Shown here: piece by piece, positions 6,133-12,389 of the stretch
Layout of the letters: every line of letters starts with the position of its first letter
Numbering within the stretch: the first letter of the stretch is position 1
DNA from: Caldilineaceae bacterium
GTDB lineage: Bacteria; Chloroflexota; Anaerolineae; Caldilineales; Caldilineaceae
Direction of reading: 5' to 3'
Assembly (NCBI GenBank): GCA_026989655.1
Contig: JALSIX010000075.1
Location: forward strand, 1-43,236
DNA length: 43,236 nucleotides
Position numbers and translations under genes: made by a program
Notes under the pieces: generated by a model
Seen by the model: only the letters and a program-made list of their open reading frames with translations
Databases searched by the model: none
Told to the model about the DNA's origin: nothing

Positions 6133-7056
6133 ATGACCGCACTTCCGGAGATCGCCATCATGGTGGAGGGCCAGAACGGCCTCAACTGGCCCCGCTGGCA
6201 GCGGATGGCCCAGGCAGTGGAGGCGCTGGGCTTCGCGGGCCTCTACCGCTCAGACCACTTCACCAACGCGGAGCCACCGGACAAGGACTCCCTGGAGCTG
6301 TGGATCTCCCTGGCCTGGTTGGCCACCCACACCCGGCGGATCGAGTTCGGCCCTCTGGTCACCCCCTTCTCCTTCCGCCACCCGGTCTTCGTGGCCCGCA
6401 TGGCCAAGGAGGTGGACGACCTCTCCGGAGGACGGCTGATCCTGGGCATGGGGGCCGGATGGCAGGAGCGGGAGCACCGGATGTTCGGCTTCGACCTGCT
6501 CTCCCTGCGGGAACGTATGGAGCGCTTCCAGGAGGGACTGGAGGTGGTCTCCCGGCTGCTCCGCAGCCCCGATCGGGTGACCTTCCACGGCCGCTACTAC
6601 CATCTGGAGGAAGCCATCCTGCTGCCCCGGCCCCGGCGCCCAGGGGGGCCACCCCTCCTCGTCGGGGGCAACGGTCCTCGACGCACCCTGCCCTTGGCCG
6701 CCCGCTACGCGGACGAGTGGAACGGGGTCTACCTGCCGGTGGAGCGCTATGCCGCCCTCCATGCCCGGCTGGACGCGCTCCTGGAGGCGGAGGGCCGGGA
6801 GCCGGCCCAGGTGCGCCGTTCCCTGATGACGGGCCTGGTCTTCGGCCGCACGGATGCCGAGCTGCGGGAACGGTTGGGCGGCCGCGATGCCGCGGCCCTG
6901 CAGGCCCGGGGGCTGGTGGTGGGCACGGCTGCCCAGGTGGCCGATCAGGTGGCCCGCTGGGCCGAGGTCGGCGCACAGCGGGTCATGCTCCAATGGCTGG
7001 ACCTGGACGATCTGGATGGGCTGGAGGCCTTGGCCCAGGCCCTTGGCCTGGGCTGA
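6133..7056 (+). CDS. LLM class (luciferase-like) oxidoreductase, probably F420-dependent
   Basis: This is a TIM-barrel protein of the bacterial luciferase-like monooxygenase family; the substrate is unknown. Typical family features are the N-terminal WPRWQRMAQAVEALGFAGLYRSDHF, the segment RIEFGPLVTPFSFRHPVFVARMAKEVDDLSGGR and GMGAGWQEREHRMFGF. The 307-residue length fits F420-dependent members such as F420-dependent glucose-6-phosphate dehydrogenase and related actinobacterial and Chloroflexota proteins. FMNH2-dependent use cannot be excluded from sequence alone. AAAGGAGG at 6120-6127 sets the start at ATG 6133. The gene lies 78 bp after the thiolase and 64 bp before the metallopeptidase, so it may be read from the same transcript, but no functional link is evident. 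Confidence 0.85.
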   Translation: MTALPEIAIMVEGQNGLNWPRWQRMAQAVEALGFAGLYRSDHFTNAEPPDKDSLELWISLAWLATHTRRIEFGPLVTPFSFRHPVFVARMAKEVDDLSGGRLILGMGAGWQEREHRMFGFDLLSLRERMERFQEGLEVVSRLLRSPDRVTFHGRYYHLEEAILLPRPRRPGGPPLLVGGNGPRRTLPLAARYADEWNGVYLPVERYAALHARLDALLEAEGREPAQVRRSLMTGLVFGRTDAELRERLGGRDAAALQARGLVVGTAAQVADQVARWAEVGAQRVMLQWLDLDDLDGLEALAQALGLG

Positions 7057-7120
7057 GCTCCTGGACCCGGAACCAACCGAGGCCCCAAAGGGCCACGGCG
7101 GGCGGGGCACCGATGTGCCG

Positions 7121-7951
7121 ATGGATGTGATCGACCTGACGCCCCTCTACATCCAGGCGCTGGACGGGGATCTCCAGGACTACCACGCCGCCTACCCGGA
7201 GCTCTTCCAGCACTACTATCGATTCTGGGCCGATGGGGAGGGCCCAGCCCCTTTCCCCAGGGAGGTGGTCCGAGAGCGGGCGGCCCTGTTGCGCGCACGG
7301 CTGCCCGGGGTCCAGAAGGCCCTGGCCCGGCGCGGATTCCCCGAACCGATGACCGTGGTCCTCTTCGTGGGCCGGGGAACGACCAACGGACACGCCTTCT
7401 GGGACTCGGCCCGGCGGGCCTTCGTGGTCTGGCTGCCGGTGGAGGCCTACACCACGGCTCTCCAGGCGGATCTCTTCGTGGCCCACGAGTGGCTCCATGC
7501 CCTGCACTACACCCGTCATCCCGAACTCTACTTCCACGATAGGCGGTCGCAGCACAGGGTGGGCCGCCAGCTCCTCACCGAGGGTGTGGCCACGTGGGGC
7601 ACGCTCCAGGTGATGGGGGTGGACGAGATCGGGGCGCTGTGGGCGGATTATGTGTCCCCCGAGTTCGCCGCGGGCTGGTACCGGCAATGTCGGCTCCGGG
7701 AACGGGAGATGGCCCGGCGTCTTCTGGCCGAGTGGCAGGAGAGCCGGGAGACCAACGACTGGTTTGCCATGTGGGACGAGCACGATGTCACCCGGTACCG
7801 GGGTGGGTACTACATGGGCCTCCAGGTGATGGAGCGGTTGCACCGGGAGCACGGTCTCGACCTCTCCGCTCTGTTGAACCTGGCCCCCCGGACCCTGGAA
7901 AGATGGGCCCGGGCGGCCCTGGAGGCCATGGCCGGGGAAGACCCCACCTGA
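7121..7951 (+). CDS. HExxH zinc metallopeptidase, DUF2268-like
   Basis: This is a predicted soluble zinc-dependent protease of about 276 residues with no signal peptide. The zinc motif is H122-E-W-L-H126 in FVAHEWLHALHY. A downstream LLTEGVATW segment offers Glu154 as the likely third ligand, a gluzincin-like arrangement resembling DUF2268 predicted proteases. I chose ATG 7121 (MDVIDLTPLYIQ) because the frame upstream overlaps the LLM gene and reads as low-quality Trp/Pro-rich sequence; no convincing Shine-Dalgarno site precedes it, and GTG 7115 is an alternative. It is probably co-transcribed with the LLM gene 64 bp upstream. The strong promoter for the next unit starts 27 bp after its stop. 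The exact family is less certain than the metallopeptidase motif. Confidence 0.75.
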   Translation: MDVIDLTPLYIQALDGDLQDYHAAYPELFQHYYRFWADGEGPAPFPREVVRERAALLRARLPGVQKALARRGFPEPMTVVLFVGRGTTNGHAFWDSARRAFVVWLPVEAYTTALQADLFVAHEWLHALHYTRHPELYFHDRRSQHRVGRQLLTEGVATWGTLQVMGVDEIGALWADYVSPEFAAGWYRQCRLREREMARRLLAEWQESRETNDWFAMWDEHDVTRYRGGYYMGLQVMERLHREHGLDLSALLNLAPRTLERWARAALEAMAGEDPT

Positions 7952-7977
7952 GACGACGTGCGGATGTGGGGTCCGAT

Positions 7978-8006
7978 TTGACATCCCCCCACCTGCTGCC
8001 TATACT
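7978..8006 (+). promoter_or_regulatory. Sigma-70-type promoter for the gatCA leader
   Basis: A perfect -35 TTGACA (7978-7983) and a near-consensus -10 TATACT (8001-8006) are separated by exactly 17 bp. Transcription would start near 8013, giving a leader of about 215 nt before gatC. Confidence 0.8.
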
Positions 8007-8012
8007 GGGTCC

Positions 8013-8202
8013 ATGATGTCGAGATCGTGCCTGTGGCCCCAGGGAACGGAGCGGTACCGCCTGGCAGCCGCCGCTGCACCGGCAGGCGCATCTTCCGTGC
8101 TCCGGTAGCGGTTGGGCGGTGGCCCCTGCGCCGTGAGCACCCGGGCCACGGCGCACAGACGCACACGCATGGACGCCGTGGCCTCCACGCTACGGCGTTT
8201 TT
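8013..8202 (+). ncRNA. Candidate structured leader (attenuator/riboswitch) upstream of gatCA
   Basis: The leader shows a 5' domain and a switch-like 3' part. In the 5' domain, CGGAGC 8047-8052 pairs with GCTCCG 8099-8104. Inside it, CGCCTG 8058-8063 pairs with CAGGCG 8083-8088, and GCAGC 8064-8068 with GCTGC 8073-8077 around a 4-nt loop. In the 3' part, TGCGCCGTG 8127-8135 pairs with CACGGCGCA 8147-8155. Alternatively GGCCACGGCG 8144-8153 pairs with CGCCGTGGCC 8174-8183, 10 perfect base pairs. That pairing would block the terminator stem at 8173-8198. The pairings are read directly from the sequence; a regulatory role is inferred. A discrete small RNA of about 190 nt that ends at the terminator is the alternative. 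I could not assign it to a known RNA family. Confidence 0.6.
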
Positions 8203-8206
8203 GTTT
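8173..8206 (+). terminator. Intrinsic terminator in the gatCA leader
   Basis: ACGCCGT (8173-8179) and ACGGCGT (8192-8198) form a perfect 7-bp stem with a 12-nt loop, followed at once by TTTTTGTTT (8198-8206). It lies 23 bp before the gatC start, so it can only act as an attenuator for gatCA or as the 3' end of a short RNA. Confidence 0.75.
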
Positions 8207-8228
8207 CCCACCCCTCCAGGAGGACGCC

Positions 8229-8519
8229 ATGAAGCTCACACCAGAGGTGGTCCGCCACGTGGCCGAGCTGGCCCGGCTGGAGCTGAGCGAGGCGGAGATC
8301 CACCGCTACACAGAGCAGCTCTCCGCCATCCTGGACTATGCCGCTCGCATCCAGGCCGTGGACACCAGCCAGGTGCCCCCCACGCCCTACGTGTTGTCCC
8401 GGGTCAACGTCCTGCGAGACGACGCGTCGGAGCCCAGCCTGCCCGTGGACGAGGCCCTGGCCAATGCCCCAGACCGGGAAGATGGCTTCTTCCGGGTGCC
8501 TGCCATCTTCGAGGAGTAG
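8229..8519 (+). CDS. gatC: Asp-tRNA(Asn)/Glu-tRNA(Gln) amidotransferase subunit C
   Basis: GatC is the small subunit that wraps around and stabilises GatA in the GatCAB complex. That complex converts misacylated Glu-tRNA-Gln or Asp-tRNA-Asn to the amidated form. The 96-residue protein has the family hallmarks: N-terminal VVRHVAELARLELSEAE, central QLSAILDYAARIQAVDTSQVPPT, and a C-terminal REDGFFRVPAIFEE. AGGAGG directly before ATG 8229 fixes the start. gatA begins 3 bp after the stop, so the two genes are translationally linked. Expression is probably controlled by the promoter at 7978 and the attenuator-like leader just upstream. Confidence 0.96.
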   Translation: MKLTPEVVRHVAELARLELSEAEIHRYTEQLSAILDYAARIQAVDTSQVPPTPYVLSRVNVLRDDASEPSLPVDEALANAPDREDGFFRVPAIFEE

Positions 8520-8522
8520 ACC

Positions 8523-10034
8523 ATGGATCCCCGGCCTCTCCACCAGTGGACCGTCCATCAGCTCCTGGAGGGCCTTGGCCAGGGCGCCTTTTCCGCCCAG
8601 GAGCTGGCCCAGCACCTGCTGGAGCGCATCCAGGCCGTGGACCCCCAGCTCCACGCCTACCTCCGGGTCGAGCCGGAACGGGTGCTGGCCCAGGCCCGTC
8701 AGGCGGATCGGCGACGTCGCTCCGGAGACCGGTCCCCTCTCCTGGGGATCCCCCTGGCCGTCAAGGATGTCCTGGTGACCCGGGGCGTGGAGACCACCGC
8801 GGGCAGCCGGATCCTCCAGGGCTTTGTCCCGCCCTACACGGCCACTGCCGTGGCCCGGCTGGAGGCGGCCGGCGCGATCCTCCTGGGCAAGACGAACACC
8901 GACGAGTTCGCCATGGGCTCCAGCACGGAGAACAGCGCGTACGGCCCCACCCGCAACCCCTGGAACCTGGACCGGGTGCCTGGCGGCAGCAGCGGAGGCT
9001 CGGCCGCGGCGGTGGCCGCCCGCCTGGCCCCGGCTGCCCTGGGCACGGACACCGGCGGCAGTGTCCGCCAGCCCGCGGCCCTGTGCGGTGTGGTGGGCCT
9101 CAAGCCCTCCTACGGACGGGTGAGCCGGCACGGTCTCATCGCCTACGGCAGCAGCCTGGACCAGGTGGGCCCCATAGCCCAGGATGTGGCCGACGCGGCC
9201 CTGCTGCTCCAGATCATGGCCGGGCCGGACCCCCGGGACAGCACCAGCCTGGATACGTCGGTGCCCGACTACCGGGCCGTCCTGGGCCGGACGATCCAGG
9301 GGCTGCGCATCGGCCTGCCCCAGGAGTACTTCACCGGGGGCATCCAGCCCGAGGTGGACCGGGCCGTCCGGGCCGCGGTGGCCCAGCTGGAGGACCTGGG
9401 CGCCACAGTGGTGCCCATCCGCCTGCGCACCCTGGAGATGGCCCTGCCGGTCTACTACCTGGTGGCCACGGCCGAGGCCAGCGCGAATCTGGCCCGCTAC
9501 GACGGCATCCGCTACGGCCGCCGGACCCCCGCGGCCACGGTGATGGACACCTACCGCCGGACCCGGGGCCAGGGCTTCGGGGCCGAGGTCAAACGGCGCA
9601 TCATGCTGGGTACCTACGCCCTGAGCGCGGGCTACTACGATGCCTACTACCTGAAGGCCCAACAGGTCCGAACCCTGATCCGCCAGGACTTCGAGGCCGC
9701 CTTCCAGCAGGTGGACGTCATCGCCTCGCCCACCTCCCCTACCACGGCCTTTCGCCTGGGGGAACGCACCGAGGATCCGCTGCAGATGTACCTGGCCGAT
9801 ATCTTCACCGTGAGCGTGAACTTGACGGGCATGTGCGCCATCAGCGTGCCCTGTGGCTTCGATGAGGCCGGCCTGCCCATTGGGCTCCAGCTCATGGGGC
9901 CCCACCTGGGCGAGGAACGGATCCTGCAGGTGGCCTACGCCTACCAACAGGTGACCGAGTGGCATCGCCGATGTCCTCCATCGGCGTCGCCGGAGCAAGA
10001 GCAAGCGGCGCGGACGCGAGACAGCCGACCATGA
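8523..10034 (+). CDS. gatA: Asp-tRNA(Asn)/Glu-tRNA(Gln) amidotransferase subunit A (glutamine amidase)
   Basis: GatA hydrolyses glutamine and channels ammonia to GatB for amidation of misacylated tRNA. It is an amidase-signature protein of 503 residues. The Ser-cis-Ser-Lys triad is visible as Lys81 in [11 protein letters not shown], the serines of [12 protein letters not shown] around residues 156-157, and the nucleophile Ser180 in [13 protein letters not shown]. The length and the lack of gaps suggest an intact enzyme. The gene sits 3 bp behind gatC; gatB is not in the window and must be elsewhere. The last 20 or so residues (after TEWHRR) are charged and low in similarity to the family core, as is common for GatA tails. 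Confidence 0.96.
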
Positions 10035-10066
10035 TGCACCGCCGAGCGTGGATCGCCTTCCTGGCC

Positions 10067-10216
10067 CTCTGGAATTCCGCCATCGCATGAAGCCGGCAAC
10101 CCGCCGGTGGAGCCGCCGGGGGTTGTGCAATCGGCTGCCAAGGCTCCCCAGGTCGACCCCAGGCCGCTACGGCTCTGGGGTTCGGAGATCGGGCCTGTTC
10201 CCGCGGAATTCCAGAG
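10067..10216. repeat. 150-bp segment bounded by 14-bp perfect inverted repeats
   Basis: CTCTGGAATTCCGC at 10067-10080 and GCGGAATTCCAGAG at 10203-10216 are exact reverse complements. Each arm contains the palindrome GGAATTCC. The segment fills most of the gap between gatA and the aminotransferase and encodes nothing I recognise. GATCGCC occurs on both sides (10051-10057 and 10218-10224), but not directly abutting the left arm. A MITE-like remnant is possible but unproven. Confidence 0.6.
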
Positions 10217-10237
10217 AGATCGCCAGGAGATCGAGCC

Positions 10238-11515
10238 ATGCGCGAGCGTTGCTCCCCATCTCTTCACGGCTACCAGGCCCCTGTCCAGGTCGTGGAGCCG
10301 CCCCAGCACAGCCACCCCCACTCCCCCGGGCGCCCTCTGCAGGGACGTCTCAGCCGTCGGGTCCAACAGGTGCCCCCATCGGGCATCCGCCGCTTCTTCG
10401 ACATCGCAGCCACCCTGGAGGACGTCATCAGCCTGGGCATCGGGGAACCCGATTTCACCACTCCTCCGCCCATCCTCCAGGCCGGCCTGAACAGCCTGGA
10501 GCGGGGCCAGACCGGCTACACCGCCAACGCAGGGATGATGGCCCTGCGGGAGGCCATCGCGGCCATGCTCCATCGTCGCTATCAGGGGCCTCGCTACGAT
10601 CCTGCGACCGAGGTGCTGGTCACCGTAGGGGTGAGCGAGGGCATGTACCTGGCCATGCAGGCCCTGCTGGACCCAGGAGATGAGGTCCTGGTTCCCCAGC
10701 CGTGCTTCGTGTCCTACCCCGCGGACGTGGTCCTGGCCGGCGGCACCGTGGTGGAGATCCCCACCTGTGCCCGCCATCGGTTCGTTCCCACCCCGGAACA
10801 ACTGGAGGCGGCCATCACCCCGCGGACCAAGGCCCTGCTCATCGGCTATCCCTGCAACCCCACCGGCGCGGTGATGGACCGGGAGGAGCTCCTGGCCATC
10901 GCCCGGGTGGTGGCCAGGCACGACCTGTTGGTCATCTCCGACGAGATCTACGATCGCCTGGTCTATGACGGCCACCAGCACGTGATGTTCGCCAGCCTGC
11001 CGGGCATGGCCCAGCGGACCATCCACCTGGGGGGCATGAGCAAGGACTACGCCATGACCGGATGGCGGGTGGGCTATGCAGCGGGCCCGGCAGAGCTGAT
11101 CGGGGCCATGCGGAAGATCCACCAGTACCTCATCATGTCCGCGCCCACCCCCAGCCAGATCGCGGCCCTGGCCGCCCTGACCGACCCGGCCGCGGAGGAG
11201 GCGGTCCAGGCCATGGTGGCCGCGTACGACGCGCGCCGTCGGCTGATGGTGGCGGGGCTGAACCAGATGGGCCTGACGTGTGTGGTGCCTCGAGGGGCCT
11301 TCTACGCGTTTCCCAGCGTGGCGTCCACAGGGATGGACGAATACACCTTTGCCGAGCGGCTGTTGGTGGAGGAGAAGGTGGCCGTCATCCCGGGGAGCGT
11401 GTTCGGCAAGGGGGGAGAAGGGCACGTGCGGTGTGCCTACGCAGCCTCCGAGGCCCACATCCAGGAGGCCCTGGAACGCATGGCCCGCTTCATCCAGCGC
11501 CACCGGATGGCCTAG
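10238..11515 (+). CDS. PLP-dependent class I/II aminotransferase
   Basis: This is a fold-type I aminotransferase of the aspartate/aromatic type that moves an amino group between an amino acid and a 2-oxo acid. Family features are LGIGEPDF, the cofactor-contact segment YPCNPTGAVM, SDEIYDRLVYDG and the PLP lysine K269 in GGMSKDYAMTGWRVGY. The C-terminal domain ends with FIQRHRMA. Start ATG 10238 has AGGAG at 10225-10229. It gives 425 residues with an unusual Pro/His-rich N-terminal extension of about 36 residues before the normal LSRRVQQVPPSGIRRFFD start. A non-ATG start further in cannot be excluded. The 3' end overlaps the convergent methylase gene by 26 bp. The substrate cannot be deduced; similar proteins are often annotated as aspartate or aromatic aminotransferases. 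Confidence 0.9.
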   Translation: MRERCSPSLHGYQAPVQVVEPPQHSHPHSPGRPLQGRLSRRVQQVPPSGIRRFFDIAATLEDVISLGIGEPDFTTPPPILQAGLNSLERGQTGYTANAGMMALREAIAAMLHRRYQGPRYDPATEVLVTVGVSEGMYLAMQALLDPGDEVLVPQPCFVSYPADVVLAGGTVVEIPTCARHRFVPTPEQLEAAITPRTKALLIGYPCNPTGAVMDREELLAIARVVARHDLLVISDEIYDRLVYDGHQHVMFASLPGMAQRTIHLGGMSKDYAMTGWRVGYAAGPAELIGAMRKIHQYLIMSAPTPSQIAALAALTDPAAEEAVQAMVAAYDARRRLMVAGLNQMGLTCVVPRGAFYAFPSVASTGMDEYTFAERLLVEEKVAVIPGSVFGKGGEGHVRCAYAASEAHIQEALERMARFIQRHRMA

Positions 11516-12389
11516 TCGGAGACGTGCCTTCTCCGGGGATGTTGCGCAGGGCCAGGATCTCCTGGGCCGGCGAGCGGTCTCCCGTGCACGCGATGCGGCG
11601 CGGGCCATCCAGGATCTGGACCTGGAAGCCCAGGCCCCGGTAGAGGGCCAGGATCCGGGCGGTGGCCTGGTTGGAGGCCACCACCGGTCCCGGATGTCGG
11701 GCCAGCCACTCGGCCAGACGTATCTGGTCTTCCCAGGCAAAGCCATCCTTGGTGTACTGGCGGAAGGGCACGTCGTAGGGCGGATCCGCGTAGAGGAAGT
11801 CCGTGGGCTCCAGGCGTAGCTTCTCGAAATCTCCCCAGCGGAAGGTCCAGGAGGCCAGCACGGGGCGGTAGGCGGTGAAATCCCGGCGGTAGCGGATGCG
11901 CTTGTAGCGGCCCATGGGCACGTTGAACTCGCCCCGCTTGTTGAAGCGGCAGAGGCCGTTGTAGCCGGTCCGGTTCAGGTAGTAGAAGAGGGAGACGGCC
12001 TCCAGGCTCTCCTCCTGGCCCGAGCGGATCAGGTGGTTGAAGCGGGCCCGGTGCGCGTAGTAGAGCTCCGGATCGTTCTCCATGGGGATCCGGATCTCCA
12101 GGCCTCGCTGCAGCCAGCGGTAGAAGTGGATCAGGTGGGGGTTGATGTCGTTGAGCAGGGCTCGGGCGGGGCGAAGGGCCAGGGGAATGGCCAGGCCACC
12201 GCAGAAGGGCTCCACCAGCCGGGGCATCCCGGCGGCCTCCCAGAGGGGCCGGATATGGGGGACCAACCAGCGCTTGCCGCCGGCCCACTTGAGGGGAGGC
12301 CGCAGCTCCTGGGGGGGATCCGGCTCCGTGCGCTCGGTCGGCATGGGTGCGGTCATCAGCAGTTCACGAATGCGTAGCGGAGTCGGCAT
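11490..12389 (-). CDS. DNA adenine methylase, D12 class (Dam-like)
   Basis: This enzyme transfers a methyl group from S-adenosylmethionine to N6 of adenine in DNA. The D12 order is clear: PPLKWAGGK near residues 31-39, VEPFCGG at about 59-65 (AdoMet binding), and the catalytic DPPY at about 202-205. With ATG 12389 it has 299 residues, near the usual size. That start has GAGG 8 bases upstream inside a GAGGATGC tandem repeat. GTG 12446 and ATG 12356 are alternatives, because the conserved core begins only at LRPPLKWAGG. The C-terminal coding end overlaps the convergent aminotransferase by 26 bp. No restriction endonuclease gene is adjacent, so it looks like an orphan methylase. The target site is unknown; GATC is only a guess from family membership. 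Confidence 0.9.
   Translation of the reverse strand: MPTPLRIRELLMTAPMPTERTEPDPPQELRPPLKWAGGKRWLVPHIRPLWEAAGMPRLVEPFCGGLAIPLALRPARALLNDINPHLIHFYRWLQRGLEIRIPMENDPELYYAHRARFNHLIRSGQEESLEAVSLFYYLNRTGYNGLCRFNKRGEFNVPMGRYKRIRYRRDFTAYRPVLASWTFRWGDFEKLRLEPTDFLYADPPYDVPFRQYTKDGFAWEDQIRLAEWLARHPGPVVASNQATARILALYRGLGFQVQILDGPRRIACTGDRSPAQEILALRNIPGEGTSPTRPSGGAG

Follow-up and report, generated by a model that had tools for sequence, protein, structure and literature searches.

The leader that precedes gatCA in a Caldilineaceae bacterium (contig JALSIX010000075.1, assembly GCA_026989655.1) is probably a ribosome-mediated transcription attenuator, in which a ribosome stalled in a block of alanine codons within a short leader ORF would cause antitermination and so control gatCA, and perhaps also a downstream aminotransferase gene. 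A fuller reading, in which the supply of charged tRNA-Ala is read by a leaderless Ala-rich peptide through a five-helix, family-wide attenuator that controls both gatCA and the aminotransferase, is a serious possibility that falls somewhat short of being probable. If the attenuator is real, tRNA-linked control of gatCAB would have a second, ribosome-based route in Chloroflexota, beside the T-box of Clostridium, and a leader with both an ORF and covariation support is a directly testable system. The window is the whole stretch of DNA analysed (43,236 nucleotides), to which all coordinates refer; its relevant features are as follows.

7978-8006, forward strand: sigma-70 type promoter TTGACA-17-TATACT, 11/12 consensus
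8013-8108, forward strand: leader ORF, MMSRSCLWPQGTERYRLAAAAAPAGASSVLR followed by a stop codon; ATG 6 nt past the -10 box, second ATG at 8016
8064-8090, forward strand: Ala-codon block, proposed control codons; 7 of 9 codons Ala, five of these seven GCA or GCT
8073-8089, forward strand: region 0, within the ORF; in most leaders RNAfold of the ORF-only RNA joins it to region 1 (8097-8112)
8097-8105, forward strand: region 1, the last three leader codons GTG CTC CGG; compensatory pairs with region 2
8127-8141, forward strand: region 2, partner of region 1 or region 3
8144-8155, forward strand: region 3, forms the anti-antiterminator with region 2 or the antiterminator with region 4
8173-8183, forward strand: region 4, forms the antiterminator with region 3 or the terminator with region 5
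8190-8202, forward strand: intrinsic terminator, region 5 with its U-tract; compensatory changes
8218-8223, forward strand: ribosome-binding site of gatC, AGGAGG, read directly from the sequence
8229-8519, forward strand: gatC (TIGR00135, 89.9 bits, above cut-off)
8523-10034, forward strand: gatA (TIGR00132, 615.8 bits, above cut-off)
10238-11515, forward strand: PLP aminotransferase gene, downstream of gatA in nearly all the family loci retrieved

Promoter, leader ORF and alternative helices

An earlier sequence-only reading of this stretch had described three mutually exclusive stems behind a consensus promoter, and its basic observations hold. The promoter and the leader terminator are, respectively, the sole promoter-like and the sole terminator-like site within 7000-12000, and the same promoter precedes nearly all family leaders. 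The stem segments all lie where that reading had placed them: TGCGCCGTG at 8127-8135 and CACGGCGCA at 8147-8155, GGCCACGGCG at 8144-8153 and CGCCGTGGCC at 8174-8183, and a terminator stem of ACGCCGT (8173-8179) with ACGGCGT (8192-8198) and a T-run at 8198-8202. This chain of overlapping perfect helices of 9, 10 and 7 bp followed by five Ts was reproduced by 0/3000 dinucleotide shuffles, a count that stayed the same when helices of 7/7/7 bp were also accepted. The leader folds more stably than its shuffles by three standard deviations (z -3.0), and its sequence is present as a single copy in its own genome.

Absent from the sequence-only reading was a leader ORF of 31 codons (ATG ATG TCG ... 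GTG CTC CGG TAG), which lies directly 3' of the -10 box. It is probably translated from a leaderless start because its ATG coincides with the expected transcript start. In most relatives, across many genera, 6-10 nt separate the -10 box from the ATG; in about eight leaders the ATG is located further downstream or a promoter match is absent. The frame running toward region 1 is open for at least 26 codons in 37/37 leaders, as against 10 and 17 leaders for the other two frames. The peptide end A-A-x-A-A-x-x-V-x-R is kept in most members, with residues -5 and -4 variable, and the N-terminal half before the Ala block displays no clear amino-acid constraint. TAG, TGA and TAA all occur as the stop codon, and where its position shifts, as it does in some lineages, the C-termini read LSAGG, LSRW or VPRWWRLLH. 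Arrest of the peptide at the stop codon was also considered, a candidate weakened by this variation and by the shifted stops.

The end of the ORF also provides the first arm of a further helix that the sequence-only reading did not have: GTGCTC (8097-8102) pairs with GAGCAC (8135-8140) and CGG (8103-8105) with CCG (8131-8133), leaving one bulged U. The leader can thus be described as five alternating helices, 0:1, 1:2, 2:3, 3:4 and 4:5 (the terminator), of which 0:1, 2:3 and 4:5 are compatible with one another, as are 1:2 and 3:4. Arms 2 and 4 are near-copies of each other, and so are arms 3 and 5; hence helices 2:3, 3:4 and 4:5 partly follow from one repeated hairpin. In about one third of relatives the 2:3 hairpin has its own U-tract, so that, if the attenuator is real, a single ribosome decision would control two terminators in these members. 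As judged from the sequence, the leader combines two hallmarks of attenuators, namely a short ORF that overlaps the predicted alternative helices, and a mutually exclusive antiterminator and intrinsic terminator ahead of a structural gene.

Conservation and covariation in relatives

We collected gatC upstream regions from the family genomes and from named Chloroflexota MAGs. The leaders were first located through the region-1 motif, and a later covariance-model search covered whole genomes. The architecture precedes gatC in 41/46 genomes of the family Caldilineaceae, once per genome: each of these 41 genomes has one strong copy (E <= 3e-10), every copy adjoins gatC upstream on the same strand, and no further strong match was found elsewhere in the family genomes with this model. 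In the remaining 5/46 genomes gatC was not found, the contig ended, or the leader was shortened. The two shortened leaders (L010 and L134, from genomes G012 and G023) contain just the promoter and a single terminator hairpin, with neither Ala block nor region 1, and possibly represent natural losses of the switch.

Among 298 genomes sampled from the class there was no comparable element outside the family, and the weak out-of-family matches to the model were rejected as other tandem-terminator leaders or chance. Six of these weak matches, in other families of the class (L177, L178, L180, L181, L182 and L184), are tandem GC-rich terminators, for example GGCCGTGGGC/GCCCACGGCC; they are often preceded by a short ORF and are followed by ABC transporter, MFS, GNAT and APH genes. 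Some peptides at these loci have an Arg-x-Arg motif (RLR, RRR), resembling leaders of drug-induced arrest.

Covariation was assessed in a MAFFT alignment of 32 leaders, in which L008, L042 and L141 are misplaced at some arms; helix 0:1 was left out of the counts. Standard pairs make up 92.5% of positions in 1:2, 87% in 2:3, 99.2% in 3:4 and 99.7% in 4:5, against about 24-66% in slid controls, and pairs changed on both sides number four, five, two and four, respectively. RNAalifold recovers 2:3 and 4:5 unguided. The case is strongest for helix 1:2, since its region-1 arm bears no relation to the CGCCGTGG/CCACGGCG arms that are repeated. Here the GTGCTC/GAGCAC of the window is replaced in various genera by GTGTCC/GGACAC, GTGCCC/GGGCAC, GCGTCC/GGACGC, TTGTCC/GGACAA and CTGTCC/GGACAG, such that changes between Leu, Ser and Pro codons in region 1 are matched by changes in region 2; the centre of this helix is imperfect in the largest genus. 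The order of anti-antiterminator, antiterminator and terminator put forward in the sequence-only reading is therefore borne out in relatives by compensatory changes in all three stems, to which helix 1:2 is now added. At the level of sequence comparison, these data show the ORF, the order of the regions, helices 1:2 to 4:5, the Ala block and the single copy at gatC in each genome.

The alanine-codon block and the proposed mechanism

Of the nine codons at positions -10 to -2 before region 1, four to eight encode Ala in 40/40 leaders (mean 5.7), against an Ala background of 13% in gatA. The spacing of this block to region 1 is constant, even in lineages with a later stop codon. Within the block the codons are conserved at their first two bases and variable at the third (0.92, 0.94 and 0.58 at codon -9), and this combination of conserved GC with free third bases points to selection for Ala codons. 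The rare codons GCA and GCT are far commoner in the block than in the genes of the window, where Ala is encoded by GCC 195 times, GCG 87 times, GCA 13 times and GCT three times. The GC-rich pairing of region 0 could be a partial cause of the preference for Ala codons. At codons -7 to -5 the nucleotides GCAGCTAG are kept, third bases included, in several genera (L003, L005, L007, L011, L015, L017, L025, L032, L042, L045 and L141), in some leaders within a palindrome GCAGCTAGCTGC; neither pairing nor coding explains this fully.

These features suggest a mechanism in which a translating ribosome probably sets gatCA on or off. RNA polymerase would start at about 8013 and a ribosome would load on the leaderless ATG. 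On reaching the leader stop the ribosome would cover region 1, such that 2:3 and 4:5 pair and transcription stops at about 8202. A ribosome stalled in the Ala block would instead cover region 0 and leave region 1 free, such that 1:2 and 3:4 pair; with 3:4 paired the terminator would be blocked and gatCA transcribed. If the leader were not translated, 0:1 would tip the balance toward termination in some members, the average state being intermediate.

Equilibrium folding with the ribosome placed at successive positions, averaged over 30 leaders, predicts that a ribosome stalled in the Ala block favours antitermination. Mean formation of 1:2 and 3:4 is highest when the A site lies between codons -13 and -7, where the mean probability of 1:2 is 0.74-0.93, compared with 0 from codon -4 on and 0.44 without a ribosome. 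The distance of the block is fixed and the mean folding response peaks there, as would befit control codons; at equilibrium the sequence of the window itself is an exception, with 3:4 formed at every ribosome position. As 3:4 always wins there, switching in the window would have to be co-transcriptional. Its relative L032 remains in 2:3 in the same kind of calculation. We infer from these observations that translation sets the switch, that it does so in the direction described, and that the switch responds to scarcity of charged tRNA-Ala.

Candidate signals and alternative readings

The supply of Ala-tRNA is the leading candidate signal, being the simplest reading of the Ala block, with Gln- or Asn-tRNA and a general slowdown of translation as its rivals. 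The tRNA or amino-acid signal suggested in the sequence-only reading accordingly stays plausible, with the amendment that it would act via a translating ribosome rather than through direct contact between RNA and tRNA. How Ala-tRNA would bear on an amidotransferase of Gln- and Asn-tRNA is not obvious, and Ala control codons do not match the products of GatCAB. Should the Ala signal be real, it would raise the question of why an enzyme of Gln- and Asn-tRNA responds to alanine, possibly by way of the conserved aminotransferase.

A rival reading keeps the attenuator and changes the signal: scarcity of Gln-tRNA or Asn-tRNA, which GatCAB produces, would stall the ribosome at Gln or Asn codons and turn gatCA on. 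Such a signal would suit the pathway, and also the T-box by which clostridial gatCAB is controlled (Saad et al. 2012, as cited in PMC4206432), and at least one Gln or Asn lies before the last ten codons in 36/36 leader peptides, a Gln at codon 8 being kept in 11/12 leaders of one set from genus g8. However, the position and identity of these residues vary, and His and Cys are enriched equally, as in an unconstrained ORF. The window leader has no Asn and a single Gln, which is codon 10 and lies 22 codons ahead of the stop, and a stall there is predicted to alter the fold little. We therefore regard this signal as rather unlikely.

A sensor of general translation or of the nascent chain, in which slow or drug-stalled ribosomes or arrest by the Ala-rich peptide itself would raise gatCA, might be seen in the conserved peptide end, and related families have Arg-x-Arg leader peptides before transporter and transferase genes. 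Yet the V-x-R end is accounted for by RNA pairing, the C-terminus differs where the stop shifts, and residues -5 and -4 vary, which makes such a sensor decidedly unlikely. The leader peptides examined share no conserved motif of drug-induced arrest, the macrolide-type Arg/Lys-x-Arg/Lys included.

The sequence-only reading had entertained a riboswitch with a 5' multi-stem sensor domain at 8047-8104. This domain is not supported: in 37/37 leaders the stretch is an ORF leading into region 1 with the Ala block, and the one pairing that leaders share in it is that with region 1. As the ORF at 8013-8108 runs through it, the supposed sensor is mostly the body of the leader gene, illustrating that strong folding in a 5' domain can come from a leader gene instead of an aptamer. 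More generally, the 5' stems might be the aptamer of a riboswitch for a metabolite or of a protein-binding leader, a reading that could draw on the strong folding and on the conservation of GCAGCTAG in several genera, but the 5' part varies freely apart from its open frame, its Ala block and its pairing with region 1, and there is neither a 5' aptamer with conserved primary sequence nor an Rfam match, so that we consider it very improbable. Searches of Rfam at gathering and permissive thresholds returned no family, with only weak sRNA matches far below the gathering score. The T-box model RF00230 had no match at the gathering score or at E <= 10, in agreement with the sequence-only reading, which had found no valid T-box.

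The notion that these are plain terminators, belonging to the upstream gene or to a gene for a small RNA, whose repeated GC-rich arms are complementary by chance, fits the near-copies among the arms but is hardly tenable, given that the promoter sits between the upstream gene and the hairpins, that helix 1:2 covaries and has unrelated sequence, that 41 genomes have preserved the element jointly with the ORF before gatC, and that none of the shuffles reproduced the chain. A small-RNA gene was rejected in view of the conserved ORF, the fixed place before gatC and the covarying switch.

Comparison with known attenuators

In attenuators of the trp, his and leu operons the leader ORF overlaps the first helix arm, control codons lie before that arm, and an intrinsic terminator precedes the operon. 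The gatCA leader has the sequence features of this class and, by analogy, may function like a trp-type attenuator: as in the E. coli trp leader, an ORF on the first arm is combined with control codons, exclusive helices and a terminator. It differs in its two additional alternative helices, its tRNA amidotransferase target, its probable leaderless start, its Ala-rich block, and in that 2:3 is also a terminator in about one third of members.

AlaL is an Ala-rich leader peptide reported before alaS in Streptomyces lividans (PMC8079986). It and the gatCA leader peptide are both rich in Ala codons, each with a proposed role in controlling a tRNA-aminoacylation gene; the two differ in phylum, peptide and target, and AlaL ends in AAA directly before its stop, whereas the Ala block of the gatCA leader precedes the paired arm. 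Leaderless attenuators are described in Actinobacteria, for instance LeuL before leuS and leuA (PMC8079986). They have in common with the gatCA leader a leaderless leader peptide before an aminoacylation or amino-acid gene, and differ in their Leu codons, simpler hairpins and phylum.

The gatCAB genes of Clostridium acetobutylicum are under T-box control according to Saad et al. 2012, as cited in PMC4206432. On that account the two systems would share an RNA leader that answers a tRNA signal and controls genes of tRNA-dependent amidation, with the difference that a T-box binds uncharged tRNA directly, while the gatCA leader has an ORF and zero T-box match. A 2008 survey of T-boxes reported none before amidotransferase genes in species lacking GlnRS or AsnRS (PMC2494555). 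In the literature searched we found no description of the gatCA leader peptide and no earlier description of a link between Ala-tRNA and tRNA-dependent amidation.

The putatively controlled genes and tRNA amidation

GlnRS, AsnRS and GatB occur together in most family genomes (G000-G069), such that gatCA is not the sole route to Gln- and Asn-tRNA in most of them; a role of the leader as a correlate of GlnRS or AsnRS loss was discarded because the family mostly has both enzymes. A match to AsnB at the curated score is found in only 8/46 family genomes, which leaves tRNA-dependent Asn synthesis as a likely role of GatCAB. By analogy with the corresponding set-up in Deinococcus and Thermus (PMC4206432), GatCAB may serve tRNA-dependent Asn synthesis in the family. 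Asn codons in the leaders do not track the absence of AsnB or this role in Asn synthesis.

The PLP aminotransferase gene follows gatA in none of the non-family loci fetched, and the nearest solved relatives of its product are aspartate and aromatic aminotransferases. The gap between gatA and this gene has no promoter and no terminator in the window, and in two other loci it has at most weak promoter candidates. The aminotransferase is possibly the third gene of the operon, sharing the gatCA transcript, and might provide an amino-acid link for gatCA. Most family loci also contain in this gap (10092-10135 in the window) a conserved element resembling a structured RNA, GCCGGCAAC...GTTGTGNAATCGGC, which fits no Rfam family and has compensatory changes in 6 of 14 hand-drawn pairs across 18 sequences; it is possibly a leader element of the aminotransferase gene.
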